Source of the DNA: Exobasidium rhododendri
Taxonomy: Eukaryota > Basidiomycota > Exobasidiomycetes > Exobasidiales > Exobasidiaceae
NCBI GenBank assembly: GCA_026210745.1
Contig: CP110633.1
Location: 24,291-88,290, forward strand
DNA length: 64,000 bases
Reading direction: 5' to 3'
Part shown: positions 6,784 to 59,309 of the stretch, one piece after another
How the letters are laid out: each line of letters starts with the position of its first letter
Numbering within the stretch: the first letter of the stretch is position 1
Notes under the pieces: generated by a model
Seen by the model: only the letters and a program-made list of their open reading frames with translations
Databases searched by the model: none
Told to the model about the DNA's origin: nothing
Made by a program: the position numbers and the translations under genes

Positions 6784-9700
6784 CTACTTGTTTATACGGT
6801 ATAGTGGGCTTAGTAGTACTAGTCCTGTTAGAAAAATTAGTACTAGTCGTGGATCTGACATTGTATTTCCTATAATTTTTGGTGAAAATAGAATAAATGT
6901 TAGTCCCACAAGGGCTAGCATTAGGTAAAGTGCATAACTTGTAAGATTACCCGTATCAAGTTTAGATACATCTTTACTACTTGCACTTAGTCCTAGACTC
7001 ATACCATGTGGACCCACTAGTTCCACAGCACCACGATCTAGTACTTTGCTAATAGTATAACCTAGCAGTAGGCTAGCATTAATAATATAATGATTGTAAA
7101 TAACATCTACAAAGTATTTTCCATTAAAAAACTGATAAAGAGTGCGTCCAAAAGAATTACCTGTTAGACTAATTAGATAATTTGGTACAACATTGTATAG
7201 ATAAAGAGCCAGACCAGCAGAAAATACTGTAACAATGGCAGGCAGCAGTTTTATGAATTGAGGTAGAGAAAAATGAGCTTCTACCATAGAAATATGACTA
7301 GGGTGAATAAACAGACTATCACTTAGAAAATCAGATCCCATACCAACATATAGATCACTAGCAACATATCCAAAGAAAATGGCAAGTAGTCCTAGAATAG
7401 TAAGAGGGATTATAACAATTAGAGGTGCATCATGAGTATGTAGATATACAGATTTACTTGCATTAGGATAAGTTAGAAATGTTAGTGACAGTAGTCGTAG
7501 ACTATAAAAGGCAGTTAGCCCAGCACTAATAGTTCCTATCCAATAGGCAGCATGACCTGAAAAAGAGTAAGTACCATATGCAATTTCAATAATAAGGTCT
7601 TTAGAATAAAATCCTGTTAGCCATGGCACAGCCATAAGACTTAGGGACCCAATAAGAATAGCAGTATAAGTAAATGGTAGAAATCCAATAAGACCCCCTA
7701 GTCGCCGTTGGTCTTGTTGATCATAAGTAGCATGAAGTACTGCACCTGCTGCTAGGAACAGTAGTGCTTTAAAAAATGCATGGTTTACTAGATGAAATAG
7801 TGCAACATTATATTGAGATAGACCACATGCTATAAACAGATACCCTATTTGTGAACAAGTAGAGTAAGCAATTACTCGTTTTAGATCATTTTGTAGTAGA
7901 CCTGTACTAGCTGCGAAAAAAGCAGTTAGAGCACCTACCCATGTAATCACAATTAGTGTAGTTGGGCCATATTCAATAAGAGGAGAAGACCGTAGTAGTA
8001 GATATACTCCCGCAGTAACTAGTGTTGCTGCGTGAATTAGAGCACTAACAGGAGTAGGCAAGAAAGTTATTAACCTGCTCAATAAGAATAATTGGAACTA
8101 GTTAACCCATACCATTGATTGGCGCTTCAATAGCATGGCCATAGCTTTCACTATGGGTCGGACTATATCATCAAGATGTGTAATCTTGCTTCACGTGTAG
8201 TCTCTGAGGATCCTACTGTTACATTATTTTTAATGTAAGATGGTTTCCTGCTGATTGCCTATTGTAATTATCCAAAATATTGTCACTTATTCTTATATAG
8301 ATGAATTTACTTGTAATAAAATTGAAAAGGAATAAGTAATTTTGGCTTTAAGGTGTTCCAGCATATAGTGAAGTTTAAGGAAGGCCCTGGTATTTTGTTA
8401 GTTAGTGCTTAATTTGATACCTAGTTTATAGTGAAATTCTCCTGGCATTGAAGGTAGTACTAGATCTCTAAGTGTAACTATACTTGTCTTACTTAGTCGA
8501 ATACGATAGGTATCCATTTGTTTATTTCGAATTTTCAGAGTAGATTTTAGCTGAAACTTCTGTAGTACTTCCTGTAGAAGAATACATTCAGTTTTAGTAA
8601 AAGATTCTGTACATAGAAGTACAGTTTGAGTTCGACCATGGCCACCAAAATAACCATCTTGAATAATCCAGTGCATCAGACTTTCTACTGTAAAGTAGTC
8701 TGAAATGGTAACAGGTACAATCTTAGTAAATTTGTGTTTACTTTCATCTCAAATATACCACATAGAATGTAGCATTGTAAAAATAGGTAGACTTGCAGTG
8801 TTAAATTGATAGTGTTGTACCATTTTTCCAGTGTGTTGAGGTAGTAGAATGTTAGGATAGGCAATCAGTTTACCACATTTGAAATCAGAGAATACAGTAA
8901 TACGCAGATGATCTAGATAATTCTTAGTGGATTCCTTTAGAGTTATAGAAAATCGAGCATTTCCTTGAGTAATTGGGCCTTTAGTTTTACTACCTGGTCG
9001 AATACTACCGTCTCCTAGAAGACAACCAGTAATGCTTCCTATTTTTGACGTAGATACTGTAGTTAGAATAGGAACAATGCTCATGTGATAGGAGTCAGAT
9101 AGATGGCTCCAGTGCAGAATGAATAGAAACGTGAATAGAGATATGGCGCCAATAAGTACCCAACCTTCCATTGCATCCGGAAGCCATGTATGTAGTCCAA
9201 GTTGTGCACTTTTACCCATAGCAGCTAGTAGCAGCAGTAGTCCAATAATAGTAATACTATTTTCATGGATAAAAGGCGCCACACTAAATACTGTAGCGTA
9301 ATCAAGGTTACCGAATACAAAAAACATAGCAAAAAATCCTACAGAAAGGAACATATCACCTACACGGTTTACTACTAGTGCTTTAATCGCACTTTTATTA
9401 GCTTGAATTCGAGTAAACCAAAAATTAATGAGTAGATAAGAAGAAATACCAATACCTTCCCACGAGTTTTGGTAAAAATACTATACTTTGCTGATAAGGG
9501 GGGAAAAATAAAAAGTTAATGTAGTCCTTTAACTTTATAAGTCATAGAACTATGCATGTGCATACCAACAATTGTTGATAGAGGTACTGTTTGACGAATT
9601 GGAATTACAATAATTCATTGATTTTTTCGTTTTTTAGCAAGTCGCGTTCGTAGTCCAAAATTGTCAGCTAGTGCTTCTTGTAGAAAAGAGATATCTTCTA

Positions 9701-12099
9701 GTGTAAAACTATCTGTGTTTAGTTGAGTAGCCCCATAAACATTAATACCCCCATCATCTATAATTCAATAAGCCAGAGCTCGACTAGTAAGTAGTTCTTT
9801 AATAGTAGCAGGTACAATTTTTCGTCGTTTACCATCACTATCATATACATAAAATAGGTCATAAAAATAATTAAGTGACTCCAGAGATCGCGTTTTAAAA
9901 GCAATTGTTTTATATACTTTTCCTGTACGAACATCAGGTTTACGAATATGAATAGTAGGTGTTCCTAGTGGACCTGTAATATTTTTAAAGGTAGCATAAA
10001 TAGATTGTAGATATGATGCATGTTCTGGGTAACTTTGATCAAATCGTAGTCGAGTATTATGTGTAGGTTTATTTCGCTCTAGAGATGCATCTCCTAGTAG
10101 TGTACCTACAATAATATCCTTTTGGATTATAGTAAGAGGAATAATAGCTACATTGCATAGCATAGTATCTAGCCCAATTGAATCTGGCCCCATAAAAGCA
10201 AAGTATCGCAAAAATCATTTAACTTTCGTTAAATGTCGGACTATATCTTCAACTTACTTAGTAGTTAACTAAAATAAGTTGCACCACGTATAGTCTCTGA
10301 GGATCCTACTGTTCCAATGGTGTTGGAAGATGGTTTCCTGCTGATTATCCATTTCATTTGAAGAATTAATCATCCATTACGATTTTCACTTTAGTTTAAG
10401 TTAAAGTACGTAAGGCTTTAGGAACTCCCAGCATACAGTGGTGTATACTCTTTTGATGTGAGCCTATAATTCACATTATAGTTAGGCCGGGAAGAGTTGA
10501 CCAACGAACATAATTAGATAATTATCCCCTGTTACTAGCACTAGCATAAAAAAAGTAAACATAGAAAGATAAGAAAAAAATCGTTGATTATGAGGATCCG
10601 CACTTATATAATCTACGGAAAAAATATGTACCAGTGATGATACTGTTAGAACGGGTAGCAGCCATTTTTATATTAGTATAGAATATATTACCTTCTATTT
10701 ACTATATTTTTAAATAGTATTAGACTATGTCATACTTTACTATAATTACAATTTAAGATGAATTGAATTTTTTATAGTAGAGTTTGGGATATCGTGGAAG
10801 GATTATTGTTAATAGTGAACGCACCTTCTAGTCGTTGAACATTTTATTCTACTCTTTTTCGTGATATTCATTGTCCTAATTTATAAAAATGTGATTACAA
10901 ATTTATGAAAAAAGGGGATATGAGTAAAAAAGACAAACTATTGTAGAATAAATTTGCTACATATTGTCTTTAGTAGTAAGACTTTTATGTAATTGACCCA
11001 ATTTTACAACTACCGTTTTAGGTAGTAGCTACGCTGAAAATGTTTACTATGTACATCTTTGTTATAATACCCGTAGTTTGTAGTTGAAATGAGCGCACAT
11101 ATGAGGAGTTACAAGACTACGTACTTTTACAAGTTCTTTAAGATTTACTTGAATACGTGGCTTTCCACCTGAATAATTAAGAGTAGTATGGATATTCCAT
11201 TTAATAAGTAGCACATTTATTAGTTTCACAACATCAGAAACTGTGAAACTATCAGTACATAGCACAAGGCCTGCACTGTTTCTACTACCATCACACATAA
11301 TTCAGTGGGCAAGACCCACTTCATTAAGAAGATTGTAAATGTCAAACGGTACTACTTTTGTGCCGTTTACAATAAACTTGTGGTATAGAATAGACAGTGA
11401 ATGGTAAGCGCGTGTTTTAATTACCACACCCATAAAAGTGTCTGTGTTTAGGCGATGATAATTCACACCTGGAACACTTTGGCAAAAGGCAGCTAGGATC
11501 CGATATACATGCCAAACATAAGGAAAATGAATAATAGATTGACTAAAGATAATACGAGCCGTATTTGTATGTGTTTTAGAAAATGTGCTAATACTCCCAT
11601 CACCTAGCAGCAGTCCTACTATTACACTTAGATGGTAACTAGGAATACCCATAAACATACGAATAAAATAACTAGCTCTATAGCCTAGCATGGACCCCAT
11701 ACTAGAAGAAGAATTTCAAACAACTATTTCAGTACATGTTGTAGGAACAACAGGGTATTTAGGTTTATAAATATTTGCCCAACCTTTTCCAATATAAATA
11801 GTGGGTGCAATATAATTCAGATATACAGTAAACATATTCTTTTCCATAGAAACTGTTAGGCTATCAAACATAAAACCCCATGAAACATCTATTAGTTCAG
11901 AATCAATCCAACTAATTAGATTAATAGAAACAGGAGATCCACAAAGTCCTACTTCATAAAATGCTACAATAGCGAGAAATGCTGAAGTCACAAGACATGA
12001 ACATGTAATAATATGTGCTCCTGTTACTCCAATTTTTCGTCCCATAAAACCTGATACAATAGAACCAAAAAGAGGTAGAAGAAGAAGAGTTAGATACAT
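6784..12099 (-). CDS. nad5: NADH dehydrogenase subunit 5 (4 exons)
   Basis: Proton-pumping antiporter-like subunit of complex I. Exons: 12099-11846 ([13 protein letters not shown] to FDSLTVS), 10662-10500 ([15 protein letters not shown] to NYLIMFVG), 9462-9163 ([11 protein letters not shown] to LPDAMEG) and 8058-6784 ([17 protein letters not shown] to the stop). Splicing after T and before G-terminated introns rebuilds SM-LLPVL, VG-WEGIG and EG-PTPVS. Exon 4 contains the conserved antiporter core ([19 protein letters not shown]). The ATG overlaps the last base of the nad4L stop (TAATG), so the two are likely cotranscribed. In exon 4 I found only CTN leucine codons in roughly 150 codons read. 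Confidence 0.96.
8059..9162 (-). mobile_element. group I intron in nad5 after DAMEG
   Basis: The 5' exon ends GAAGGT at 9163 and the 3' exon starts CCTACTCCTG at 8058 after an intron-terminal G. The core is at about 8150-8350 (plus-strand view: TCTCTGAGGATCC, GGTTTCCTGCTGATTG). Confidence 0.92.
8398..9162 (-). CDS. LAGLIDADG endonuclease in nad5 intron 3
   Basis: In frame with nad5 exon 3 through AMEG. Motifs: [13 protein letters not shown] near 9035-9000 and [12 protein letters not shown] near 8670-8640. A TGA at 8749-8751 is Trp. It ends KLGIKLSTN at 8398. The second helix carries QDG rather than the usual DDG, so one catalytic acid may be altered. Confidence 0.88.
9463..10499 (-). mobile_element. 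group I intron in nad5 after IMFVG
   Basis: The 5' exon ends GTTGGT at 10500 and the 3' exon starts TGGGAAGG at 9462. The core (10260-10370) precedes the ORF, which fills the 3' part of the intron. Confidence 0.9.
9516..10211 (-). CDS. LAGLIDADG endonuclease in nad5 intron 2
   Basis: Motifs: [16 protein letters not shown] near 10110 and [13 protein letters not shown] near 9770. The Trp of the second motif is a TGA (9765-9767) and another TGA-Trp lies near 9617. The frame opens downstream of the intron core and is not continuous with exon 2. The start is uncertain (a TTG at 10211, or the ATG about seven codons later). The stop is TAA at 9516, 53 bases before the 3' splice site. Confidence 0.85.
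10663..11845 (-). mobile_element. group I intron in nad5 after SLTVS
   Basis: The exon ends TCTAT at 11846; the next exon starts GCTGCTACCC at 10662, rebuilding TCT ATG CTG CTA. The 3' core has a GTTCAACGACTAGAAGG-type segment (minus strand) near 10825. Confidence 0.88.
11062..11845 (-). CDS. LAGLIDADG endonuclease in nad5 intron 1
   Basis: Continuous with nad5 exon 1, reading TGA as Trp at 11716-11718 and at 11299-11301. Motifs: [15 protein letters not shown] near 11610 and [13 protein letters not shown] near 11290. It ends KLRVL at 11062. Probable self-propagation enzyme of the intron. Confidence 0.88.
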
Positions 12100-14463: not shown

Positions 14464-14541
14464 GGGTACAACTTTGGAATTGAACCAAAATCAAACAATT
14501 CCACAAATTGTTGCTTTATCTATTAAGCTAGAAGTATCTCT
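14464..14541 (-). tRNA. trnH(gug): tRNA-His(GUG), second copy
   Basis: Near-copy of trnH at 37014-37088, with loop TTGTGGA and anticodon stem ACAAT/ATTGT. The T stem differs from the other copy on both sides and stays paired (TTTGG/CCAAA versus TTCGG/CCGAA), which suggests constraint. The first acceptor pair (A-C) and one conserved D-loop G are lost. It may be functional or recently dead. Confidence 0.6.
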
Positions 14542-16743: not shown

Positions 16744-17496
16744 ATGGCAATGAAAGGTAACATTACTAAAACATCCGTGTCGAAATCACTAGCACCTACA
16801 GCTGTAGTATCACTTGAAATGGTAAGATCGACGCTCGGCATGAAAATGCCTCAATGGGGTCGAGATAACGCTGTGGTTTCTAAACGAATTCGATCTATTA
16901 TTCTAGGTAGTCTACTAGGCGACGGATCTCTGGATATGCCTGGTATAAATAAATATCCACTGTTTGTACTTGTACAAGGATTCCTTAATTTCGAGTATAT
17001 CTTTTTTATTTATTCAGAGCTTTCTAGCCTATGTCAGTCACTACCTAAAATGGGCCAAACAGTAAGACGAAACAATCGCCATTACTACATGCGTGTTTGA
17101 ACTCGTAGCTATAGATTTCTAGAAGAGTTCTATAATAATTTTTATATGATAGTAGATAATAAACGTGTCAAAGTTATTAATATTGAATTTATTATGCTTA
17201 TTATTGACCCACTATCTCTTGCCATTTGGGCAATAGAAGATGGTAAAAAAGTTGGTTATGGTTTCGGACTATGTACACAAAGTTTTACATTTTCTGAGGT
17301 CTATAAACTCGTAGGACTTCTTCATTATAAGTTTGATCTGCAATGTTCTGTTCACATTGTTGATAAGAATAAACCTATAATTTACATTAAGGCACAATCA
17401 ATAGATAAGTTCAGAACTATTGTATCGCCTTTCTTTCATGAGAAGATAGGGTATAAACTACGACCTGGTCGTCAAGTTCATATATTATTCTCATAA
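16744..17496 (+). CDS. free-standing LAGLIDADG endonuclease ORF
   Basis: Starts about 120 bases after the rns 3' end and is not inside a recognisable intron. Motifs: IILGSLLGDGSLDM near 16890-16930 and LAIWAIEDGKKVG near 17220-17255. TGA at 17098-17100 is Trp. CTN-only leucine usage begins right at the ATG, supporting this start. 250 residues. It could once have served the ORF-less rns intron. A decayed copy of its C-terminal half follows at about 18060-18330. Confidence 0.82.
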
Positions 17497-19784: not shown

Positions 19785-20144
19785 CTAAATTATAACACAG
19801 ACATAAAAAACTATTTTCGGGATACTAATAAAACCATTACCTCTAATTAGAGAATAACACGTTATAACCAGTATGGCACCAAGTGTTTTGAAAACATTAG
19901 TAAAATTAGTAATAGTAGTATTAGGTTGGAAAATTTCAAGAGGGGAACCTTCCATGACTGCGATAAAGATTCTTGAAATTGCATAATAAACAACAGCATA
20001 AAAGACTAGATTTTTAATAGTCACCACTAGTTCGTTTTTATTGTTATTCATAACACGTGAAATGAAATATAGTAGAAGCATGCTAGCTGACATACTAAGT
20101 GTTAGAGTAACAATATTAGTGTAAGTAGTATCGTAACCGAACAT
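19785..20144 (-). CDS. unknown membrane protein ORF overlapping cob
   Basis: Not recognised. About 119 residues, starting [10 protein letters not shown] if ATG 20144 is used. An upstream ATG at 20162 would include a TTA codon, which coding regions here avoid, so I prefer 20144. From there all leucines are CTN. Three to four predicted membrane segments (IVTLTLSMSASMLLLYF, LVFYAVVYYAISRIFIAV, LGAILVITCYSLI). The 5' end overlaps the last 29 bases of cob in another frame. It could be an orphan mitochondrial gene or of plasmid origin. Confidence 0.6.
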   Translation of the reverse strand: MFGYDTTYTNIVTLTLSMSASMLLLYFISRVMNNNKNELVVTIKNLVFYAVVYYAISRIFIAVMEGSPLEIFQPNTTITNFTNVFKTLGAILVITCYSLIRGNGFISIPKIVFYVCVII

Positions 20145-23100
20145 TTTCTGTAAATTGCGCATAGGCGGGGTGTTTAGTAGGATAGGACATTGAGGTTTTG
20201 GAAGGGGAAGTTACTTTATTAGTTTGTGCCATATCCATTAGTGTATTTTCAATTACACCAATAACTGGTACAATAACTAGGAAATATCCAAAATAATATA
20301 CGGTAGCTGCTGCTCCAATACCAATATAAGGATCTTCAACATGCACTTGTCCAATGAACATTAGAAGGAAGAAACATGATACAAATGACCAAAAAAATAG
20401 ACGACTTAGAGGTCGGAATTGACTACCTCGGATTCGACTAGTATCTAGCACTGGCATTAGAAGAAGAATAAGTAGTGATGCAAACATCGCAAGTACTCCA
20501 AATAGTTTATTAGGAATAGAACGTAGAATTGCATAGTAAGGTAGTAGATCAAAAAATATATTGACTAAATCCCTAGTTTGTAATACATGCTAGGTACCAT
20601 GTATGGTTGTACAATAGTACGTAGAGTTGACATAGATTCCTGTAGAATATAAATACGAGGACCACTTTTGTGATAATGAACTGTACAAACAAGAGAGTAT
20701 TTCGTACGTAGTGTTTCTAGTAGACGTTGTACACCTATTTCATCAAAAGCATAAACATTGAGATGAAGGCCTTTGTTTTGTTTAGAACCATCATCTATAA
20801 TTCAATAACTAAGACTAATAGGTGTTATTAGATCTATAATATTCATAGGAACTTCGCGTTTTCCGTTTTTATAAAAAAGATCATAATAAAGATTTAGGCA
20901 AGGTAGACGCATAGTTATGAAACCAATACTGTCTAGACTTGTGCCTTTTGTAACAAAATGTTTAATTAGAGGAACAGTAGTAAGAGTACAAAGTACTTTA
21001 AAATTTTCGAATACTTTAGTAAAATATTCTTTTTTTTTAGTAGATTGATTAAATCCGAATCTAGTGTTCGTATTTTTGCCTGGTATCTTAGTTAGAAAGC
21101 CATCTCCAAGAAGATGACCTACAATACAATCAGCTAGAAATTTGGATAGTGAAATACTCTGTCGATCTTTTAGGGACATACGTTTATTTTTCGAAGAAAT
21201 AATAGGAGCTAGGGTAATTAGATCAATATATTTTACAAATTAGCTATAATATTTATTATTATATTCCATATATTACTATATGGTTTAGACTATGTCATAC
21301 AAGTTAAAAAGTGAGATTAGAAGAATAATTTTATTCATTAATTTTTTATTGAACTTGTCCCGGGTTGTAGTCGTTGAACGCTTCTATAATAACAATAAAT
21401 GTTATTTTATGTTAACTATATAGATTCCGCTGCAAATTGGAGTATGTTTTCATACTCATTTCTTGCAATTAGTCCGGGTTTTTAAGAAAGGCATCTACTT
21501 AGTAATACCATTCAGGTACAATAGAAGGAGGTGTTTGCATAGGGTTAGCCGGAATGTAATTATCAGAATGTCCTAGAGAATTAGGCATATAAAATACAAA
21601 TGCCGATAGTGCTAGTAGGAATACAAAAACTGTAACAAGATCTTTAAAAACAAAATAAGGGTGGAAAGGCAGACGATCCGTATTACCTGATACACCTAGA
21701 GGGTTACTACTTCCGTGTTCATGCAGGGCCAGTAGATGCATAGCAGCCAGGGCAGCTAGCACAAAAGGTAGTAGATAATGAAGTGAAAAAAATCGATTTA
21801 GTGTAGCATTACTTACAGAAAAACCTCCCCAAACAACGATATTATATTCATTTCAATATAATTAATCTTGAAATATACTTATTATTACTAATAAGTCTAG
21901 ACTATATTATCATCTTTTACTAATTTAGCAAATAGATGTAGGGCATTCGTGAAGAGATTATTTCACTCTCTAGTCGTTGAACGTTTCTGTTATAACAGAT
22001 TTCGCTGCAGATTGTCTTAAAAAGGGGAAATGTATTTTAAGAGTTACTTGCAATTTACCCTATTTTTCATATTATATTACTATAATAAGCAACTTATTAT
22101 CCTTTCATATAGCTTATTTGTTATTCTAGTAGAAAATAAATCTAGTAGCATAGTTATTATTTATTATTCATATAATTATGGTAGTTTTAGCGTTTTGAAT
22201 CGACTAACATTTTTCATAAGATTGACCCATTCAAAGTACTGTTGTTTTTTGTACCCTATTAGTGGATGTACTTTAGAAAAAGAGAAAAAGTTAACCACTT
22301 TTTCAAGGTCTTTCACAGAAGAGACTGAAAATTGAGAATAACCTAGAGAAGACACATCAATTTTTCTAGTGGTATCGAAAAGAATACTAAAAGCCATAAA
22401 CAGCTCTGTATGTGTCCGTTGACGAACTGTAAAAAAAAATTCTCCAGTGTTTTTTACATAAAAAGAACCTTCAGCTATTACAAAACCTACAAACCAGTTT
22501 ATAAAAAACGGAAGATTAATATAACCCATTGCATTTGTAGGTAGATTCTTCATATTAATAAAATTAGCTGAAACTACTGAAGGAATTTTTTCATATTTTA
22601 GAATATTATTAGTTAGGATATACAGGGCTATTGAATATTGTGCTCGACGAGTATCTGTTAGAAAGAATAGATTATATTCAGTAATTAGAGGAAATAGAAC
22701 TTCTTGAAGATCTACTTTACTAATAATATATTTACTAGTAGTTTTGTATGTATAGAGCCGTCCAATCTTTAGAATCGAGTAAAAATACTCCAGAGTATTT
22801 TTATCTCTAACATCAACCGAAATTACTAGTTCTATCGAGATATAACCATTAGTAGTTTTAGTTATTTTAATATAACCGTCTCCATCAACAAATCCAATGA
22901 ATATAGCTATAAATTCATAAGAAATATCTTTATAACAGAATTTTTCATTTGATGTACGAATTTTAGCTCCTCGTAGTGCTTGCTCTTACATTGACTTTAC
23001 CAATAGTCGGAAGATAGCAATAATAAATAATAAATAGGAGAATAATAAAAAGATATACTTGAAAGAAAAGGATAGAATTAAATTGTACAAAATCTTGACC

Positions 23101-24655
23101 AATCCATGGAATGGCACTTAGAAGATTTGTAATTACAGTAGCCATACACTCAATCATATGTTGTGATGCTTAAAGCTATTTTTCCTCCAATCATATGACC
23201 CTGTACCCTATTTTTCTATGATACATAGATAATAAAATGGGCCTTGTGTTATTACTATTTAAATAATAATTAATAAGTAATAAGAGTGTGCCGACTGTAC
23301 ATTAAGCACCTTAATTTTAAGTAAGATACCCACCGAGGGACCAGTCTGTAGCGACCATCTTTTTGACTAAATAATCAAAAAGACAACCGACGGTCTAAGC
23401 TTAAGGGAAGGCTGTTGACCGTATTCTTCAGTGTTGCCCAGTTACTATTTGTAGTAAGATAATAACAGGACTATGCAATCAAGTAGAAAATTGTAGTTAA
23501 ATAGTGCAATGTTCCTAGTTTATATAGTATAGAAGGAACCATATAAGGTTTTACAATAGTTCGTAGTAGAGGCATAGATTCTTTAAAGACATAAATTACA
23601 TATTGATTTTCAACTCCTGCTGAATGTACAGAAGTTTTAAGGCCATATATGTCAGAAAGAACCTTGGTGAGTAGTAGACAATCTTCATAAGTAAATGAAT
23701 TTGTTGACCATTTTATACCTTGTCCTACTCGTGATCCATCATCCATAATTCAAATAGCAATGGCTAGAGGTGTTAGATATTCTATAATATTACTAGGTAC
23801 TCTTTTAATACCATTACTATACCAAATATCATGAATCCAATTTAGACTGCTATATGTGAAAGTATGAAATCGAATTACATATCGTAGTTTACCACCTACT
23901 CCTAGTCGAGTTTGAATGATTGGAACACTAGAACTACAATAACCTATGTTGGCAATAAGACTATGTAGCCAAATTAGATATTGTTGTCTATTAGATTCTT
24001 GAGAAAAACTAAATCGTGTTCCAGAACCTGTAGCTCTACGTTCAGCATGACAATCTCCAAGTAGAGAACCAAAAAGAATACTAATAATATCTTTATTATG
24101 GGGTCCTACTCGTGATTCAGCACGTAGTCGTTTAGCAATAATACCTGTACTAAGATAAATACTAATAAGAACAATGGATATAAAAATAAAATTAGCACAT
24201 TCATTACATCTGGGGCGATAATAAACACCCCAAAGTGACATTTGACCATATGGGAGAACATATCCTAGAAAGGCAATTGCCATCATAAGAACTAGAATCA
24301 CTACACCAATAGACCAAAGAAGAACTCGTGGTGATTTATATGATCCATAGTAAAGTCCTCGACCAATGTGAAGATACACAAAGATAAAAAAAAAGGAAGC
24401 AGTGTTAGCATGTAGATATCGAATTAGCCAACCGTAGTTAACATCACGCATAATATGTTCTACACTAACAAATGCTAGATCTACACTGGGTGTGTAGTGC
24501 ATTGCCAGAAATACCCCTGTTAGAATTTGAATAATCAGACAGGCTCCAAGCAGTGACCCAAAATTCCACATATAAGAAATATTGGCTGGTTGTGGTGAAT
24601 CCACCATATAGCTATTAGCTAGTCCTAGAATAGGATGTGTTTTAAGTAGTCGCAT
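20116..24655 (-). CDS. cob: apocytochrome b (4 exons)
   Basis: Core heme subunit of complex III. Exons: 24655-24227 ([15 protein letters not shown] to GQMSLWG), 23142-23082 ([20 protein letters not shown]), 21836-21507 ([18 protein letters not shown] to PSIVPEW) and 20549-20116 ([15 protein letters not shown] to the stop). Heme-ligand regions are present ([24 protein letters not shown]), as is PEW at the end of exon 3. Exon ends in T and introns in G at all three junctions. Leucine is CTN in all codons read. The 3' end overlaps an unknown ORF. Confidence 0.96.
20550..21506 (-). mobile_element. group I intron in cob after VPEW
   Basis: The exon ends GAATGGT at 21507 and the next begins ATCTACTACC at 20549, restoring WYLLPYYA. 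A GTCGTTGAACG-type core segment is near 21370 (plus view). Confidence 0.9.
20565..21179 (-). CDS. LAGLIDADG endonuclease in cob intron 3
   Basis: ATG at 21179, downstream of the intron core and not fused to the exon. Motifs: [15 protein letters not shown] near 21130 and [13 protein letters not shown] near 20800, the latter with TGA-Trp at 20802-20804. The stop TAG at 20565 is only 15 bases from the 3' splice site. Confidence 0.88.
21837..23081 (-). mobile_element. group I intron in cob after GQDFVQ
   Basis: The exon ends CAAT at 23082 and the next starts TTGTTTGGGG at 21836 (Q-F-V-W). The 3' core is at about 21900-22010. Confidence 0.88.
22176..22984 (-). pseudogene. LAGLIDADG endonuclease in cob intron 2, possible +1 frameshift
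   Basis: Motifs: [16 protein letters not shown] near 22890 and [16 protein letters not shown] near 22500. The frame reads [11 protein letters not shown] from 22984, but TAA lies just upstream and no start is present. The exon frame, by contrast, runs through the first part of the intron to TAA at 22963. One extra A in GTAAGAG near 22984 would explain both. Either truly broken or a sequence error. Confidence 0.72.
23143..24226 (-). mobile_element. group I intron in cob after GQMSLWG
   Basis: The exon ends TTGGGGT at 24227 and the next starts GCTACTGTAATT at 23142 after G. The intron ORF fills its 5' part. Confidence 0.9.
23471..24226 (-). CDS. LAGLIDADG endonuclease in cob intron 1
   Basis: Continuous with cob exon 1. 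Motifs: [17 protein letters not shown] near 24080-24050 (Cys replaces the usual Gly after the Asp) and [11 protein letters not shown] near 23745, preceded by TGA-Trp at 23750. Ends at 23471. Confidence 0.88.
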
Positions 24656-33762: not shown

Positions 33763-34722
33763 AGGGAAAACTCTACAAAATATAGTAAAAATAACAATTA
33801 AATAAAAAATATTCATGAAAAACATTACACAATACCTACATAAAGTTATTATTGGACAAATTCTAGCTGACGGTCATGTGGAAAAGACAGGTCAAAACTG
33901 TCGACTTTCTTTTTCTTTTGGTACACCTTATATTCATTATGCAAATTGAATTTATTCTCTACTTAGAGATTATTGTTCTAATTCTGTTTATTCTGTTGTA
34001 AGTGCTACTAGAGGAAAAAAATATATTAATTATAGACTAAAAACTTCTACTATTATAATTTTCAATCAATATCGCGAAATATTTTACATTATAGAAAATG
34101 GTAAGTATAAAAAAATTATTCCTATTGCTATTGCTGAAATAGTCTGTCCTATTGTGCTAGCACATCTAATTATGGGTGATGGAACATTCGGTGCTAAAGA
34201 TAGTCGTATTCGTATTTATACTAACCATTTTTCTCTTCAAGAATGTAATATGCTTGCTGATGCTATTACGGTAAATTGTGGTATTGAGTGTAAAGTACTT
34301 TTTGATAGAACAGGAAGTTACGGAGATAAACAATATATTCTAACTATCGGTAAGAATCAACTAAGAAAACTACAGGAGCTTGTATCTCCTCATATGCATA
34401 GTAGTATGCTGTATAGAATTGGACTAACGTCTAATTTATTTAAATTTTTCCCTTTTTACTATAATAGTAGATATTGAGCCCAACTAAAACTGGATGAATT
34501 GCAATAAGAGTTAATATACTTGATCTGCAGCGTAGCTTATTATAGCATATTCTATTTATGTAGAAAAAAATAATAAGAACGTTCAACGACTAATGAGTGA
34601 GCTATGCTAGCAATAATCTCGACACGAGCGTCCAGCGGTAGTAAAAATACTATCGATGATATAGTCTTATCAATTTTTGCTAAATTGTACACTAATTAAA
34701 AATAGGTAACTAACAATAATAG
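33763..34722 (+). mobile_element. group I intron in rnl near E. coli 2585-2593
   Basis: The exon ends GAGTTGGGTT and resumes TCAATACGACGTGAGTCAG. Core at about 34575-34680 (TTCAACGACTAATGAGTG, CGACACGAGCGTCC). Confidence 0.85.
33815..34477 (+). CDS. LAGLIDADG endonuclease in last rnl intron
   Basis: 220 residues from ATG 33815. Motifs: KVIIGQILADGHVE near 33840 and LAHLIMGDGTFGAK near 34155. TGA-Trp near 33947 splits it under the standard code. Ends at 34477. Confidence 0.87.
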
Positions 34723-35643: not shown

Positions 35644-36405
35644 TTAGTATGCACTTTTTATAATAAATGATTGAATGTCTGGTGAAAGGGGGAAAATTTC
35701 GTAAAAGTGCAAGAATTTTCGGCGAATTTTTTGTGCAATTCAAACTTTAATAGTAAATGCACCTAGTTCATTTTTTGTAGTGTGTTTTGCATAATCCACT
35801 GGACCATCAAAAGATCCAAATAGACTAATTTTTTTTGTCATACGTGGCACAACTCGTTCTGTTAGTAGACGACCTGCTAGTTCAATTTTAATACCACTAA
35901 TATAAGCTGGCAGTAGCGAAGCGTTACGAGATGGATAAGTCATAATACTATTTTTGAAATGTACAAAAGTATTACTAGGTGCATTATGTGCTAGATATTT
36001 TGCAAAGATGGTACTATTCAGGTAAGGATAATGGATACGAGTTAGTACCAGTGACACTTCTTTTTTATAAATAGAAGATAGAGAATTACTAAGTGAAGAT
36101 AGGGAAATGGTTGATAGAACCTCTTGAACGGATTTTTCTTTAGTATAATTCATTTTACTAAAATAAAAAACATGAATTGTGGCTTTAGTACTTGTATGAC
36201 TATATGTGGGAGTGCTATGAAGCAGTGATCCTACATTATCTTGAATGCTAAAAAAATAACTATTAATTAGAGAGGATGCAATAGTATCTTTAGATATATT
36301 ACCTGATATACGAGAACCCGTGAAAAAATAGCCTTTGTTATTTTCTTGCAGTGAAGAAGAAATCATAATACTGGCATAAACGTTTTTAGGATGAGTGATT
36401 TTCAT
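35644..36405 (-). CDS. rps3: ribosomal protein S3 (uS3m)
   Basis: 253 residues when TGA 35740-35742 is read as Trp. The C-terminal half has the uS3 signature: GIKIELAGRLLTERVVPR, then DYAKHTTKNELGAFTIKVW, matching the KVW end of the S3 family. The N-terminal half is Ser/Tyr-rich and divergent, as is common in fungi, and short for the family. It stops at 35644, 15 bases from trnN on the other strand. Encodes the small-subunit head protein. Confidence 0.87.
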
Positions 36406-38219: not shown

Positions 38220-39692
38220 TTAAAGGGGGGAACTGGTTGTAGTGTAAAGTAGTGTAGAAACAGATACATGCAGTGTATCTAGTACCACATTAGGGTAAAT
38301 ACCAAGTAGCACTGTAGCAATAAGCAGAGGAAGTAGGAGCATATATTCTCGTCGTGTTAGATCTGTTGTATAGTTCAGATATTTGCTTCATGACCCAAAT
38401 GCAATACGGTTGTATAGCCAAATAGAGTATGCAGCACTTAGAACAATACCAGTGGCACCAATAACAGCGATAAGCGGACTTTCTTGAAAAATTCCGGTTA
38501 GTGCTAGTACTTCTCCAATCCAATTTGCACTTAGCGGTACTGCAGCATTAAAAATAGTGAATAGGAAAAAGAGTAGACTAAACAGTGGCATATAAGCTGT
38601 CATACCTCGATAATACTTGATAGTTCGCGTATGATATCTATCATATAGCACACCTCCTACGAGAAAGAATAGTGCAGGACTAACAAAACCATGTGCAATA
38701 CTGAGCATAATAGCTCCTTCAATACCTTGAACAGTATTACTGAATAGTCCTAGTACTACAACACCCATATGAGCTACAGAAGAATATGCTACTAGTTTTT
38801 TAAAATCTGTTTGTCGCAGTGTAACTAGACTACCATAAATAATAGAAATAATCGCCATTACTTGCACTAGAGGTGCAAAGTAACATGTTGCATCAGGTAG
38901 AAATTGAATAAGAATTCGCATGTAACCATACGTGGCCAGTTTAAGAATAACACCCGCTAGAATAATACTCCCAGCGACAGGAGCTTCAGAGTGGGCATAA
39001 GTTAGCCAAGTGTTAAAAGGTATTAGAGGTGTCTTAATAGCCATACTCATAAAGATTGCCATCCAAATAATCTTTTGGGAATCTGGATCAATTTCTGAAA
39101 GAGACACTACATTAAAATCTGTTGATCCCACATTGTGAAAAATGATAAGAAAGGCTAGTAGCATAAATAGTGAACCAAATAGCGTATAAAGAAACAGAAG
39201 GTAAGCAGCCCGTACTCGCGTAGGACTACCTCCCCAAATACCTACAATAAGAAACAGAGGGATTAGCACACTTTCAAAAAAAATATAAAATAGTAGAATA
39301 TCTAGTACTACAAACACTGCAATAAGCAGTGTTTCTAGCAGCAGGAAGGACATTAGAAAGTATTTTACTCTATATCTAATACTATCCCAATTAGATAGAA
39401 TACAAATAGGAGTAATGAATGTAGTAAGTAGTACAAAATATAGACTAATACCATCTACTCCAATATGCAGATGACAAAATGTTACTTGATCTTCCAGAAA
39501 TTCTTGTGTAAATTGATATTGACTAGTATTAGAGTCAAATTCTCCTCAAAGAATTATAGATACTACAAAATTAACAAGAGATACACCTAGTGCTACACGT
39601 TTTATATTGGATTTTCCAATAGTAGAAGAATTATTCATGGGTGCTAGTGCTAGTGCACCAACAACAGGAATAGTTAGAAGTAGGGTTAGCAT
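38220..39692 (-). CDS. nad4: NADH dehydrogenase subunit 4
   Basis: 490 residues, intronless. Starts MLTLLLTIPVVGALALAP at 39692. Two TGA-Trp codons, at 39546-39548 (ILWGEFDS) and 38388-38390 (AFGSWSKY), would cut it in three under the standard code. Conserved antiporter core: YAHSEAPVAGSIILAGVILK and SVAHMGVVVLGL. Ends SSPL at 38220. Complex I proton-pumping subunit. Confidence 0.96.
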
Positions 39693-40485: not shown

Positions 40486-40872
40486 TTATTTTTGTTTTTC
40501 AACAACATTCATAGAAGATCGTCCATTAGTGAAATATAGAGCTCCTTTACCAAATTCATACACAAACCCTACAGCAAGTACAGTAAAAAAAAGCATAGCG
40601 ATTCAAAAACCATATGATTGTACAGTGTACATACATGAAGCTAGGGGGTAAACAAGTAGAATTTCTAGATCGAAAATTATAAATAGGATACCTACTAGAA
40701 AAAAAGAAATGGAGAACCGTTCACGAGTTTGTCCATAAATGGCATTATATCCACATTCATAACTTGTTACTTTTTCTGAATCAGGACGATGTACCGCAAG
40801 CAGTAGATTAGCTACTAGAAGAATCACTACTAGAATAGGGATAAAGATAAAAAATAGTGTAATTGTATTCAT
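40486..40872 (-). CDS. nad3: NADH dehydrogenase subunit 3
   Basis: 128 residues. Conserved loop [22 protein letters not shown] carries the Cys of the complex I active/deactive switch. TGA at 40603-40605 is Trp, after which the last helix ([20 protein letters not shown]) follows. The ATG shares one base with the nad2 stop (TAATG), so the two are coupled. Confidence 0.96.
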
Positions 40873-42389
40873 TAATAATAAAACAGGGAAAGAGCCAGTA
40901 GATGGCAGCTATTTAGTAGGATAGTAGGTTGTAGTACAAATAGTGTCATTACCATAGTTAGACTACTGATAACAAAAGCATGTACATTTGTAATAGATTT
41001 TTCTTGTGTTTTAGTATATACTATTTTATTTTCAAATTCTTTAGATGAATCAAAATACATCACTTTAATGATTTTTAGATAGTAAGAAGCACTAATTACA
41101 CTAACTAGAATTGCTACAATTGAGATAAAATAATATCCTCCGTGTGTAGAAGAATATAGTACCATTTGTTTAGCAAAAAACCCCATTAGTGGAGGAATAC
41201 CTGCCATAGAAAATAGACATAGAGCAAAGCTAAGACTTAGTAGTGGATTAGACGTAAATTGTCCTTTTAGGCTATCAATAAACTCAATATCTTTTTTAGG
41301 ATAAACATGGATTATATAACCAAAACCGAGTAGTACTAGGAACACATTAGCATTTGTAAGCGAATATTGTACAATGTAAAATAGTAGAGATTCAATAGAT
41401 TCTTCTGTATTAATACTTAGTGCTAGAAGTAGAAATCCTACATGACTAATAGTGGAATAAGTCAGTAGTCGTTTAAGACGATATTGAGAAAGTCCAAGTA
41501 CAGTACCAATTACTAGTGAAAGAAGAGAAGTTACAAGAAGTAGATTTTTCCAAATATCTACAGAACTGCTTCCTAGTTGTAGAGATAGTGACTCAAAACT
41601 ACCTTCCAGACCTGTTTGTAGTTCTAGTAGAAATACAAAAATAGAAATTTTAGGCATAGTACTTAGCCAAGCAGTTACTACTGTAGGCGTTCCGTCATAT
41701 ACATCTGGCGCCCAATTATGAAGAGGTGCTGCTGCTACTTTAAATAGAAAACCAATACCAATTAGCAGTAGGCCGAATACGAGTGCTCCTACATATTCAT
41801 CATCACCTGCTACAGAAGTTAGTGCATAAATACTTTCAAATTGAGTTAGTCCTGTATAACTGTAAATTAGAGCTGTTCCTAGTAGAATTAGAGCAGAAGA
41901 GAGTCCACCTAGTAGAAAGTATTTAAGCCCAGCTGCAGTTGCGGATTCTGAATTACGATACAGTGTAGCCAGAATATATACTGCAAAACTTTGTAGCTCA
42001 ATAGAAAGATACATAGATACTAGATCTGAACTTGATAGCAGTAGACTAGCACCAATAGTTGTGAACATAATTATTAGTGAATATTCACTAATAGTTGGCA
42101 CAGCAGTAGTTCCATATGCTGGTAGTCCCACGGGAGCTCAACCTAGTAGTAGAATAGCTCCTATACAGAATAGAAAGGTCTCTATTCCTAGTGAAACAGT
42201 ACTTACGTGAAATAGCCCACTGTAAATACCTACTCCTGAGGATAGGGATTCAACATATAGTGAATTATATGAAAGAAAGGCCGAAAATAGTAGCGTCACC
42301 GAAGTAATTCTATTAAATAGACTAGGTGTAATACGGTAGGAAAATAGTGGTACGGCGATAAGAAGAGATAGTAGTCCAATAGAAAGCAT
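40872..42389 (-). CDS. nad2: NADH dehydrogenase subunit 2
   Basis: 505 residues. Starts [19 protein letters not shown] at 42138-42140 is Trp (LLLGWAPVGL). Conserved: [33 protein letters not shown] and [20 protein letters not shown]. Complex I antiporter-like subunit. Overlaps nad3 by one base. Leucines read are CTN only. Confidence 0.96.
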
Positions 42390-43867: not shown

Positions 43868-44017
43868 TTTAAACTCTTATACAATGATTGAATGATAATA
43901 AAAGCTTACTATTTTTATAACAATTCATATATGCGAACAGCAGGACTTCATTTTTGAGTTGAATTACTACTTATAATAAAAGGGGGTAAGATAACAAGAT
44001 AAGTTTAGTTTAAATTT

Positions 44018-45258: not shown

Positions 45259-45341
45259 TATGAGTAGTGGGACTTGAACCCACACAGCGTTATGCTACCG
45301 CATCCTAAATACAGCTTGGCTACCAATTTCAACACACTCAC
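45259..45341 (-). tRNA. trnL(uag): tRNA-Leu(UAG)
   Basis: Acceptor GTGAGTG/TACTCAT, anticodon stem CTGTA/TGCGG with loop TTTAGGA (UAG), long variable arm, T arm GTGGGTTCAAGTCCCAC. Reads CUN codons. It is the only leucine tRNA I can find in the window. Confidence 0.92.
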
Positions 45342-49405: not shown

Positions 49406-50532
49406 TTAGTAAAAGGGAGTAAATTGTGTAAATAGCCATCCTTTAAACACTTTGTTCTTGATTATCATTTTTCTAAGAGTAGAAACTCCTACAGATCGAT
49501 CAACATGAGTAGAAGTAAATTTAGCGGCATTATTGTAAGAAGAAAAAAAGTATTGCTTATTATTATCGAAGGTATCTGTAACGGTTATTGGTTTTCCAGG
49601 GAGAAAACTACCATTAGGATTGACTTGTCGAGCTTTGTTAAACAGTAGTAGTAGTTGTTTATCATTGACTAGATTTTCCTTTGAAAAAGTATTGAATAGA
49701 AGAGGTTCTTCACGACTAATAAGAAATTTGTTATACAGTAGAGATGCACTACTAGTAGAATACCGTGTTAGTGTAGCAGGGCTAACTCCTGTCACCTGAC
49801 TAAGAATATTTCGAGACTTAGCTACATAAATAAGTACTCCTTCCATATATACATACAGCATAATATTTATTCTATTTCGTAGAGCCTCACGTTGTTTTAC
49901 CGTCACTACAGGAGGAATATTTCATACTCCTCCTGCGATTTTTACCATGTTAAGAGAAGGATTACATAGAATAATGTAGTATTGTTCAAGGATGACAACT
50001 AGTCGTTTAATATCATTAATTGCGCCAATAGAAGGAATAATGAAGATAGAAAGACTAAATTTATCAATACCATGTTGAAGGATATTTTTATTGACTAGTC
50101 GGTTTGAATGAGCTGTATTTTGAAAGTATCTCCGCACTCGAGAAGCTAGATCAACAGAGCTTCCAACATATTGTTCTTTGGTGATGAGATTGGTCCAAAT
50201 GTAAATACCAGCTCGTTTAGGTTTACTTGTATAACCAATCACCTCCGCTAGTTTGAGATAGTTTAGAACACCGGCGAAAAAAGACTTTCCATTTTCAGAC
50301 TTACAGATGAGATCTTTAGAAGATTGTTTAGTTCTTCTTGTATAATTGGTTGATTTTTAATTATACTATTACTAGCCAGTAGATTGTTGAGCATTAGTGC
50401 CCCAATCTCTGATGTGTTATTGATATAAAACAGTGCAAGTTCATGTACATTTGTTTTTTTAGAAATAGTAGTTTGTGTACTATATTTTTTAGATACAGAA
50501 TTTTTACTAGTTGACTTTTGGAAAATAATCAT
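49406..50532 (-). CDS. free-standing GIY-YIG endonuclease ORF, probable frameshift
   Basis: The N-terminal frame 50532-50263 and the nuclease frame (from about 50280) differ by one base at an A6/T6 run (50277-50282). Nuclease module: AGIYIWTNLITKEQYVGSS, RVRRYFQ, ILEQYYIILCNPSLN. TGA-Trp at 49922-49924. The C-terminal NUMOD1-like part (SQVTGVSPATLTRYS) ends at 49406, nine bases from trnS(uga) on the other strand. About 375 residues if joined. Resembles the ORF at 44018-45163. Confidence 0.78.
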
Positions 50533-53140: not shown

Positions 53141-54139
53141 TTAAAAGGGGGTAGTTGGCAGAATATCAAAAGCCACAAGTAGACTTGGGATGAGAATAAG
53201 TATTGCAATAGCAATAGGTAGCATACCTGTCCAACAAAAAATCATTAGTTGATCAAACCGAACTCTAGGTAGAGTAGCTCGAATCCATACAAAAACAAAC
53301 ATAAATAGCACAGCTTTGAGTCCAAGTACGATGCTTTGTAGGTTAAGAGCACTATTATTAGTGATAATTTCAGGTACATTATAACCTCCTAGAAATAGGA
53401 TAGCAGTAAATGTAGACATTAGTACAATACTACCATATTCTGCTAGAAAGAAAAATACGAAGATTATACCAGAATGTTCTGTTATAAAACCAGCCACTAG
53501 TTCTGATTCTCCTTCACTAAGATCAAATGGTGTACGGTTTGTTTCTGCAAGAGCAGAAATAAAGAAAAGAATAAAGATAGGTAGTAGTGGCAGAATGTAC
53601 CAAACACTTTGTTGTGCTTCAATAATTTTGGTAATATTAAATGTACCACATAGTAGAATGACACTTAGTACTGCTGCACTATAAATTAGCTCATAACTAA
53701 TCATTTGTGCTGTAGATCGTAGTGCCCCAAGGAAAGCAAATTTGGAATTGGCTGACCATCCTGCAAAAAGGATTCCGTAAACACCAATGGAAGAAAGAGC
53801 AAGTGAATAAAGAATACCTAGTGAAAAATCAGACAGTGCTAGCCCTGGTCCAAATGGGATAACACCCCAACCTAGCAGACTAAAAATAAGAGTAACCATC
53901 GGAGCTAGAAAAAATAGGCTTTTTGTTGATTGAGATGGAATAATTTGTTCTTTTACTACTAGTTTAAGTGCATCTGCAAATGGTTGTAGTACTCCATAAT
54001 ATCCTACTACGTTTGGCCCAATTCGTCGTTGCATAGAAGCCATTACCTTTCGTTCAATAATTGTCATAAAAGCAACAGCTAGTAGGATAGGTACTAGTAC
54101 AATTAGAATTTCCAGTAGATTATATAGGATTGATAGCAT
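53141..54139 (-). CDS. nad1: NADH dehydrogenase subunit 1
   Basis: 332 residues, intronless. Quinone-site subunit of complex I. Starts MLSILYNLLEILIVLVP. Conserved: ERKVMASMQRRIGPN, GVYGILFAGWSANSKFAFLG, and ALAETNRTPFDLSEGESELV with the conserved Glu row. Ends PTTPF. Leucine CTN only in codons read. Upstream is a hairpin at 54195-54227. Confidence 0.97.
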   Translation of the reverse strand: MLSILYNLLEILIVLVPILLAVAFMTIIERKVMASMQRRIGPNVVGYYGVLQPFADALKLVVKEQIIPSQSTKSLFFLAPMVTLIFSLLGWGVIPFGPGLALSDFSLGILYSLALSSIGVYGILFAGWSANSKFAFLGALRSTAQMISYELIYSAAVLSVILLCGTFNITKIIEAQQSVWYILPLLPIFILFFISALAETNRTPFDLSEGESELVAGFITEHSGIIFVFFFLAEYGSIVLMSTFTAILFLGGYNVPEIITNNSALNLQSIVLGLKAVLFMFVFVWIRATLPRVRFDQLMIFCWTGMLPIAIAILILIPSLLVAFDILPTTPF

Positions 54140-55393: not shown

Positions 55394-57360
55394 TTAATCT
55401 TTGCAAATAAAAGGGGATATTGCGATTGAATCAATCCAAGCTAGGTATTTTTGAGGACTAACAGCTTCTACACAAATAGGCATAAATCCATGATATACTC
55501 CACAAATTTCAGAACATTGTCCATAAAATACACCTTCTCGTTCAATAAGTACTGATACTTGATTTAGACGCCCGGGAGTAGCATCAATTTTTAGTCCTAG
55601 GGAAGGTACTGCAAAATCATGAATAACATCTTGTCCTGTCACGATAAATCGAATATGAGTATCTACTGGTACTACTACACGGTTATCTACATCAAGTAGT
55701 CGTAGTTGACCATCTTCTAGATCTGTTTCAGGCACCATGTAAGAATCAAACTCAATAGATTCACCATCTTCGTTAATGAAATCACTATATTCATAAGACC
55801 AGTACCATTGATGTCCTACTGCTTTAATTGTCATAGATGGTGAAATCACTTCCTTTCTCTCTATCACAAAAATTTGCTGTAATGCGACACTCTCAAATTG
55901 TCGCAGTCAAATAGTTGTAAAGTAAAGAGCTTGGACTATATCATCATCTTTATTATGGTTCGTATAAAGATGTTTCACGTGTAGTCTCTGAGGAACCTAC
56001 TCTTGCAATGGTGTTGCAATTTGGTTACCTGCTGATTGTCCTTTGAAAAATTATGTAAAAAAAGAGTATTTTAATTTTTCCATAGTTATGATTTTTACTG
56101 TCATTTACTTTTATTACAGAAAACGAAGTATTATAATGGATGTACAATAGTAATCGTGACTATTTGTTATAAAATAGACAGTACATACTATGATGAGGAG
56201 TTTCCAGCATATAGTGAAATTATTCAATTAGACTTACATCTAAAGGGGACAAAGTTATTTATTAATGAATGTAAATAGAATAATAGCAGTTTATATAGTA
56301 TACTTTCATGGAAATGAGGTCTAACAAGTACATCAAAGGTATTCATTGATTTACTTTTAATATAAATTATCAGACCATCGCCATGTTTTTGTGCTGTACA
56401 TTGCAGATCATATTGATAATGTAGCATTGATACTAGTAGATATACTTCCTTATGAGTAAATCCTTCCGTATGGAGATAAAACCCTTTGCCGCGGGAGGCC
56501 TTACTACCATCATCCATAGCTCAATAAGCTAGTGCAATGCCATTAAGGTAGGGCAGAAGGTCATACGTAACTACCTTAGTCCACTTACCGTTTATATCCT
56601 TTTTGTAAAATAGATCAAATAGAACTAGTAGAAAAGAGTAACTTCGAGTGTGGACTTGACAATTGGTGGTGACTACACCATTACGGTAGGAAGTACTCGC
56701 TTTAGGAAATGTTGCACAATAGTTTTGAAGTCGTATAAACACATGCCATACATAGCTAAATCGTTTAAGAGTTTGTGAAAAGATAAAATAAGGAGTAACG
56801 GAAGTGCGTGATATGTTAAGACTACCATCGCCTAGAAGATGGCCTACTAGTTGAGATAGAATAGCACTACTACATGTTACAGAAGAAAGAATATATTTAG
56901 GTAGTCGTCTAATACCTAGTGTATTGCCTCCTTGTCCATATTTAACTAGTTCTTTGCTAGTAGCTGTTGTTACAACAAGTATACTTTTTATTATTGAAAC
57001 TGTATAATATTCTATATAATTCATAGGACTATCCATTAGATAAAGCAGTTTGAAGCTAGGAAAAGCAATTGCAATTAGTACAAAAGCAGGAGTAATAGTC
57101 CAAATAAGTTCAATTAGTGTACCATGATTGGCGTATTTATATACAATTTGTGATTTATTACTACTGAAGTTTACAATAGCAGACGATAGTACCCACATAA
57201 CTCCAAATAGAATAATAACTAGATAAAAAAAAATGGTATCATGTAGTTCTGTAATACCTTCATGTGTAGGTGAAGCTCCGTCTTGAAACCCTAGTTGCCA
57301 GGGTTCGGGAGCATCGTTATAAATAGGAGTAATAAAAGAAAATAGTAGATTTATCATACT
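55394..57360 (-). CDS. cox2: cytochrome c oxidase subunit 2 (2 exons)
   Basis: Carries the CuA center and docks cytochrome c. Exon 1 57360-57031 ([28 protein letters not shown] to LLYLMD), exon 2 55852-55394 ([24 protein letters not shown] to the stop). CuA ligands are visible: [14 protein letters not shown] and [16 protein letters not shown]. The frame is open further upstream to 57420, but those codons include TTA, so ATG 57360, matching the family start, is chosen. Confidence 0.96.
55853..57030 (-). mobile_element. group I intron in cox2 after LLYLMD
   Basis: The exon ends ATGGAT at 57031 and the next starts GAAGTG at 55852 after G. Core at about 55980-56040 (plus view TCTCTGAGGAACC, GGTTACCTGCTGATTG). 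Confidence 0.92.
56224..57030 (-). CDS. LAGLIDADG endonuclease in cox2 intron
   Basis: In frame with exon 1. Motifs: [15 protein letters not shown] near 56855-56815 and [12 protein letters not shown] near 56530-56495, the latter with TGA-Trp at 56521-56523. Ends at 56224. Confidence 0.9.
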
Positions 57361-57591
57361 AAGAAATAATTCCTGTTTTAATTTATCTCTATAACTCTCT
57401 CTGCAAAAATAGATATGCAAGATTACAGATAAGTTTTACATATATAAATTAAAAGGTAGGTTATAACCTTCTCTGTTTTAGGGTTTATTATGAATATAGA
57501 CGCTCAAGCAAGATAATATTATAGCAAGCTATATTTAATAAAAAACACTAGAAGGCAGCAAATGGTAATATCATTCAATAAGAATGATAAG

Positions 57592-58988: not shown

Positions 58989-59162
58989 GTAAAAATAAAA
59001 AATCTCTATAGTTAAGAGATTATTATTGTAATTTTAACTATAATATGAAGATTGGCACTAATTGCGAAAAACGCAATGTAGTAAATGAATAACACTATTG
59101 CTAATCTAGCAATAGTGTCAGAAAAATTGTTTTAATGTATAAAATAATCTGGTTATATTAAT

Positions 59163-59309
59163 CTATAGTTTAGTGATATACATTCGTGTTACAAATAGTT
59201 CCGTAAATGCTGGTAGAATAAATCGACTCATTACGTACACTACAATAAATAGTCCTAGTAGCGCAAATGAAATTTGGTTTACGAAGTAAAATGGTAGCAG
59301 TTGTGGCAT
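59163..59309 (-). CDS. atp8: ATP synthase subunit 8
   Basis: 48 residues, too short for a typical ORF cutoff. Begins [19 protein letters not shown] and ends RMYITKL. The MPQL start, single membrane helix and basic C-terminus are the family hallmarks. The atp8-atp6 order is the usual fungal one. A 60-codon ORF overlapping it in another frame is a shadow. Confidence 0.95.

Follow-up and report, generated by a model that had tools for sequence, protein, structure and literature searches.

What do the codons UUA and UUG (together UUR) mean in a mitochondrial genome that writes its leucines without them? The question arises in Exobasidium rhododendri, a basidiomycete and plant-gall fungus of the subphylum Ustilaginomycotina, whose relatives are the smut fungi. 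The window, that is the whole stretch of DNA analysed, comprises 64,000 bp of a circular fungal mitogenome with a length of about 65,970 bp and leaves about 2 kb (L011) outside. It spans positions 24291-88290 of a contig of 88,290 bases. When positions 1-22310 of this contig are aligned to 41675-64000 of the window, 22,303 positions are identical, 30 are gaps and none is substituted. Since the contig start thereby repeats the window's end at a distance of about 65,970, the mitogenome is circular and was assembled beyond one turn. The 30 gap positions between both contig copies over 22.3 kb represent either indel errors or heteroplasmy. The best nad1 matches that carry a fungal name belong to Jaminaea and Tilletia. 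Our answer, to which we assign a probability of about 0.8 on the basis of sequence comparisons, is that UUA and UUG have probably been reassigned from leucine to stop: trnL(uaa) was lost, leucine is encoded by CUN only, and release is most likely carried out by the mitochondrial release factor mtRF1.

Codon counts were made in Pfam-matched stretches, with only the best stretch per Pfam family, so that disputes over intron borders were avoided. In 5,383 codons from 33 ORFs, neither TTA nor TTG occurred once, next to 655 CTN codons, 395 of them in core genes and 260 in endonuclease domains. The initial annotation had described a near-complete avoidance of UUA and UUG that extends to mobile elements, and both statements are borne out. 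For this count the first residue (TTG) was cut from three Pfam stretches and a gap of seven residues was bridged in one cob exon; the untrimmed stretches hold three TTG, no TTA and 655 CTN in 5,379 codons. These three TTG directly precede PTPVSAL in nad5 and HHMYAVG and HPEVYIL in cox1, and because the preceding exons end in DAMEG, FLVWS and FWFFG, respectively, they are most simply read as the last bases of introns. In masked non-coding sequence, UUR accounts for 54% of the six leucine triplets, which gives a log10 P of -221.6 for finding none; the missing UUR are therefore not due to base composition. The genes that were named by eye and counted whole (nad4L, nad3, cox3, and atp8 from position 59309 downwards) are likewise free of UUR, as are two cox1 exons in the segment of about 2 kb outside the window as far as GAMN and FWFFG. 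UUR upstream of a recognisable coding start were not scored as coding (codon 1 of ORF 17-1312; codons 1, 4 and 8 of 6784-8082; codon 1 of 9516; codons 9 and 12 of 46508; codon 33 of 55394; codons 1, 14 and 18 of 56188; codon 1 of 59825; codon 8 of 60604). The only other sense codon with three counts or fewer is AGG, which is absent from both the trimmed and the untrimmed counts with about 47 expected. The gene trnR(ucu) is present at 18747 although AGG is absent, and AGG is the first terminator in none of the 33 ORFs.

The absence of UUR can be used as a coding test in the mitogenome of E. rhododendri. Four ORFs of the reverse strand without a Pfam match (19397-19675, 19785-20162, 47435-47875 and 50263-50532) are free of UUR over 88-145 codons, the exceptions being a mechanical TTG start in two of them and codon 4 in 19785-20162. 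By chance this would be expected with probabilities of 0.003 to 0.00007 each (single-frame values), and the four ORFs are possibly translated genes. Two more long frames without UUR lie near cox1 exons outside the window, at contig positions 23112-23636 and 22664-23092.

ARAGORN predicted 24 tRNA genes, including a single one for leucine with 83 bases and the anticodon UAG (Table 1). No tRNA with a UAA or CAA anticodon was found across the full circle by ARAGORN or, in the part outside the window, by Rfam at E values up to 10. Very lax or metazoan ARAGORN settings added leucine-like calls with the anticodons UAG, CAG and AAG, none with UAA or CAA; an untypable call with the four-base anticodon 'gtaa' under lax settings was regarded as noise. 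The segment of about 2 kb outside the window, in which a trnL(uaa), together with ordinary TTA counts in the unread parts of the genes, would have refuted the initial annotation, yielded no tRNA at all, and TTA counts are not ordinary. That UAG is the only leucine tRNA found thus stands, and the proposed loss of the UUR-reading tRNA is supported. Two similar tRNA-His(GUG) genes are present at 14464-14537 and 37014-37087 on the reverse strand.

The initial annotation had mentioned rare UUR codons at the ends of endonuclease ORFs. They are real, and they are the key to reading UUR as stop. If UUR were merely avoided or unreadable, intact genes should reach UAA or UAG before any UUR, but in 10 of the 33 identified ORFs (19 Pfam-supported endonuclease ORFs and 14 core genes, with UUR sought in the last 40% of each ORF) UUR comes first, near the end. 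Of the endonuclease ORFs, 8/19 meet UUR as their first terminator, close to a neutral share of 0.472 (p 0.82). ORF 22176-22553, which lacks a Pfam match and ends in TAA, was kept outside this count and would change it to 8/20; the broken gene half at 62982-63353 was also left out here, while its Pfam stretch is part of the codon count. All UUR-ended ORFs are open across whole Pfam domains and hold no UUR within them.

Where these ends fall was followed in the LAGLIDADG_2 family, in which the Pfam match of three ORFs falls 1-9 positions short of the profile end, so that this end was extrapolated. Four ORFs that end in UAA or UAG have their terminator 18-20 residues past the profile. Six others reach UUR at 17, 18, 18, 19, 21 and 24 residues, and their next UAA or UAG follows only at 19 to 48 residues. 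With UUR counted as stop, the ten ORFs end 17 to 24 residues past the Pfam end (SD 1.9), as against 18 to 48 (SD 10.3) when they are counted to UAA or UAG. The 77 codons that separate the profile end from UAA or UAG in the four ordinary ORFs are free of UUR (chance 0.006). Past the first UUR, six UUR occur in 106 codons (neutral frequency 0.064), and UAA or UAG is reached after 11.6 codons on average (neutral 14.0); the stretch downstream of the first UUR behaves as untranslated sequence. From the 16th codon on, 16 of 18 UUR fall in the last 32 codons of the ORFs, which hold 11.8% of all codons, and the other two lie upstream of where cox2 sequence becomes recognisable; in the same control over all codons, TGC ranks second in end bias with 4/9. 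UAA or UAG follows within four codons of the UUR in four of the ten UUR-ended ORFs. A LAGLIDADG_1 gene at 62982-63915 on the reverse strand is split across two frames, with WNK-TTG at the end of its second half, and seems to be degenerate.

Table 1. Features of the E. rhododendri mitogenome that bear on the meaning of UUA and UUG (window coordinates).
Feature	Position	Strand	Remark
cox1-intron LAGLIDADG_1 ORF 17-1312, proposed stop TTA	26..28	-	TAG 3 codons further
nad5-intron LAGLIDADG_2 ORF 8398-9354, proposed stop TTA	8410..8412	-	TAA 4 codons further
nad5-intron LAGLIDADG_2 ORF 11062-12099, proposed stop TTA	11065..11067	-	TAA immediately after TTA
LAGLIDADG_2 ORF 16744-17496, proposed stop TTA	17485..17487	+	TAA 3 codons further
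cob last exon ORF 20116-20487, possible stop TTA	20134..20136	-	TAA 6 codons further, hence ambiguous
LAGLIDADG_2 ORF, internal control	20565..21179	-	TAG end 18 residues past domain
cob-intron LAGLIDADG_2 ORF 23471-24655, proposed stop TTG	23507..23509	-	TAG 12 codons further
LAGLIDADG_2 ORF 33815-34507, proposed stop TTA	34436..34438	+	TAA 23 codons further
rps3 ORF 35644-36405, proposed stop TTG	35710..35712	-	Codon 232, 8 residues past KVWI; TAA 22 codons further
nad4	38220..39692	-	UUR-free core gene, 77 CUN
nad2	40872..42389	-	UUR-free core gene, 92 CUN
GIY-YIG ORF 43967-45163, proposed stop TTA	44000..44002	-	TAG 11 codons further; same in second contig copy
tRNA-Leu(UAG)	45259..45341	-	Only leucine tRNA found in mitogenome; ARAGORN default and mildly relaxed settings
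nad1	53141..54139	-	UUR-free core gene, 53 CUN
cox2-intron LAGLIDADG_2 ORF 56188-57420, proposed stop TTA	56281..56283	-	TAG 31 codons further; same in second contig copy

Core genes rarely end in this way. Of the 14 counted, three of which (nad3, nad4L and cox3) lack a Pfam assignment and were identified by eye, two have a UUR end, namely rps3 and the ambiguous cob, which is fewer than expected at the neutral share (p 0.011); adding atp8, which ends in TAG, gives 2/15. The core gene rps3 most likely ends in UUG, as a comparison of its C-terminus with 79 homologues suggests. Twenty-nine of them are cut directly before the W of KVWI, probably because the gene caller took TGA as a stop. The remaining 50 end at most 8 residues past KVWI in 42 cases and at most 17 residues past it in 48, and two end at 29 and 33 residues. 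The relative P0247 (68% identity) ends 8 residues past KVWI, exactly as proposed for E. rhododendri. In three further relatives (P0250, P0251 and P0254) the seventh residue past KVWI is a leucine, followed by a longer tail than in most; this leucine is possibly a UUR stop that the gene caller read through. UUR would accordingly be a stop that core genes tend to shun, perhaps as a weaker stop, or its rarity there may be a product of stalling.

Reading UUR as stop calls attention to the factor that would have to recognise it. The genome contains two matches to the RF-1 domain. The PCRF domain, which reads the codon, was matched only once in the genome. The PCRF-bearing gene, mtRF1, is of the RF1 type by its best PDB matches, and its ORF is 100% identical over 93% of the query to CBS101457_001453 of E. 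rhododendri. Its codon loop keeps Gln181, Arg182 and Thr186, while three positions differ from other basidiomycetes: Glu187 is replaced by Gln, Arg191 by Lys and His193 by Gln. At position 193, whose histidine stacks against the middle base of the stop codon, glutamine was found in 28/28 named Ustilaginomycotina records and histidine in 37/37 other named basidiomycete records among the best 120 of 8,000 scored matches, which were ranked by likeness to the query and are not a random sample; all 120 together have Gln in 81, His in 38 and Leu in 1. Among the same matches listed, position 191 is Lys in 27/28 named Ustilaginomycotina and Arg in 37/37 others, and position 187 is Gln in 25, Thr in 2 and Ile in 1 of the 28, as compared to Glu in 37/37. 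The named records were grouped by general taxonomic knowledge, and a few species are present twice. In Thermus numbering, Gln181, Arg182 and Thr186 are tied to codon specificity in the available text of PMC6821328, and position 193 was numbered by counting on from the residues given there. A change of mtRF1 specific to E. rhododendri was considered and dropped, as all 28 named Ustilaginomycotina among the best 120 matches carry the loop change, and a uniqueness scan of these 120 found no loop residue peculiar to this species. The codon loops of mtRF1 from Meira, Sympodiomycopsis and Parajaminaea (P0129, P0199 and P0235) diverge even more than that of E. rhododendri.

Taken together, UUR is found in frame where proteins should end, at a near-neutral rate in endonuclease ORFs, and its behaviour is thus that of a stop rather than simply that of a sense codon which is avoided or has no assignment. 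A mechanism may be proposed in which leucine is written as CUN only and read by tRNA-Leu(UAG), and UUR serves as a stop: a minority one among core genes, and one whose frequency at the ends of endonuclease ORFs is close to neutral. The factor most likely to act at UUR would be mtRF1 with its changed codon loop. The second RF-1-domain gene (L014), which has no PCRF match, could encode an ICT1-like, codon-independent rescue factor that may help by freeing ribosomes stalled at UUR for which there is no tRNA. In the order of events that we infer, the ancestor of the Ustilaginomycotina most likely acquired the altered release-factor loop, and trnL(uaa) was lost with this change or after it. Leucine would then have been rewritten as CUN before UUR drifted back as stops, mostly in endonuclease genes. 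The scenario of tRNA loss and subsequent purging put forward in the initial annotation is thus right with regard to the loss and the absence of UUR, and incomplete, since UUR reappears in frame where proteins should end.

The main rival accepts this loss and purging and stops there: UUR would be unassigned without being a true stop, and a ribosome reaching a terminal UUR would stall and be set free by codon-independent rescue. The preference of core genes for UAA and UAG fits this explanation, and so do the presence of L014, in its presumed rescue role, and the unchanged Gln181, Arg182 and Thr186 of mtRF1. We nevertheless regard it as unlikely. The near-neutral share of UUR among endonuclease ends speaks against such ends being very costly; the codon loop of mtRF1 is altered throughout the named clade records among the best 120; and the core gene rps3 most likely ends in UUG. 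Still less probable, to a degree that we give it little weight, is that UUR continues to encode leucine by means of an imported cytosolic tRNA-Leu and is strongly avoided in favour of CUN. Import would be invisible in the sequence and has been suggested for Ustilago maydis in the portion of PMC13028006 available. Against it stand the 655 CUN without a single UUR in the trimmed count, even in mobile endonucleases, the ordinary UUR rates that occur only behind the expected ends, and the tails of 12 to 31 codons that read-through would add to 23471, 33815, 56188 and rps3. That the ORFs with UUR ends reflect pseudogene decay or faulty assembly and that the avoidance alone is real, as the degenerate gene at 62982-63915, the gap positions in 22 kb between the contig copies and the mere 2/10 UUR stops in the doubled part might suggest (8/10 lie in the singly assembled part), is hardly credible given domains open throughout and UUR-free, a doubled part without substitution in which both copies agree on the stops at 44000 and 56281, and a core gene, rps3, among the cases.

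The reading of UUR as stop has counterparts in other lineages. Leucine-to-stop changes have been described, as far as the available texts go, in green-algal and labyrinthulean mitochondria and in plastids of some dinoflagellates; a fungal case was not found in the literature searched, which left most subscription journals outside its coverage. The closest likeness is with the Marsupiomonadales and Pseudoscourfieldia marina (Pycnococcus provasolii), in which, according to the accessible parts of PMC12574857 and PMC6821328, UUA and UUG are absent from gene bodies and confined to 3' ends, and a cognate UUR tRNA is missing, all as here; the same sources describe a mutated codon-binding region in algal mtRF1a. 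The mtRF1 of E. rhododendri is altered in its codon loop (Q187, K191, Q193), likewise in most or all named Ustilaginomycotina records, and may resemble the algal factor in this respect. As those organisms are green algae and E. rhododendri is a basidiomycete, the origin would be independent, and unlike in the algae, most UUR ends here are those of mobile endonuclease genes, and all 28 named records of a subphylum among the best 120 matches have the mtRF1 change in common. NCBI table 4, the mould mitochondrial code, is like the present case in that in-frame UGA encodes Trp (14 in domain codons), but differs in that UUA and UUG do not behave as leucine here. NCBI table 23, the Thraustochytrium code, adds UUA alone as a stop. 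UUA as stop is shared with this code (PMC12574857, as far as available), whereas in E. rhododendri UUG appears to terminate as well (rps3, ORF 23471). In the same partial source, the labyrinthulean change lies in mtRF2a (Ser204), unlike the single, RF1-type PCRF match found here. A Thraustochytrium-type code was rejected, given the inclusion of UUG and the lack of a second PCRF gene in our search.

Codon use in relatives was taken from papers, and by these and the mtRF1 records the change of UUR looks old and common to smut fungi, not specific to this genome. In mitochondrial genes of U. maydis, TTA/G and AGG are very rare and one TTG adjoins the stop codon of I-UmaII, which matches the pattern in E. 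rhododendri; the text of PMC3498182, as far as available, treats this as rare usage within a code basically not deviating from the standard one and proposes no stop reassignment for UUR. A 2026 paper (PMC13028006, in part) lists TAG as the only leucine anticodon of U. maydis, in two copies, and suggests tRNA import with all codon combinations present. Sporisorium scitamineum has 22 tRNAs with doubles for Ser and Met only, and therefore one leucine tRNA (PMC4466345, in part); mitogenomes of Malassezia carry 22 to 32 tRNAs according to the available section of PMC10113387. The portions of PMC10849329, PMC10064765, PMC8672057, PMC11413489 and PMC7593156 that were at hand held nothing decisive on UUR. 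Searches with a nad1 alignment or cox3 as query found no DNA relatives among viral contigs, and a cox3 search of genome contigs, of which the best 80 of 582 relatives were all bacterial by title, was set aside.

By inference, the code goes back to the ancestor of the subphylum. That UUA and UUG are stops in all Ustilaginomycotina, including U. maydis and Malassezia, through an ancestral codon-loop change in their only mitochondrial release factor is a broader proposal, which we favour with some reserve. The sense-to-stop change proposed here goes together with specific substitutions in the single release factor with a codon-reading domain that was found, and named species, the laboratory model U. 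maydis among them, stand on both sides of the phylogenetic split. Through this coincidence the open question of how release factors come to recognise an additional codon becomes testable. That the endonucleases keep to the UUR rule points to a long stay in hosts that use one and the same code, and to transfer between such hosts. If the code is indeed clade-wide, annotation with table 4 would yield false C-terminal extensions throughout, which would affect the mitogenomes of smut fungi and Malassezia. The code would then also be a barrier to endonuclease genes entering from, or leaving to, other fungi, which suggests that a genetic code is able to confine mobile introns to a clade.
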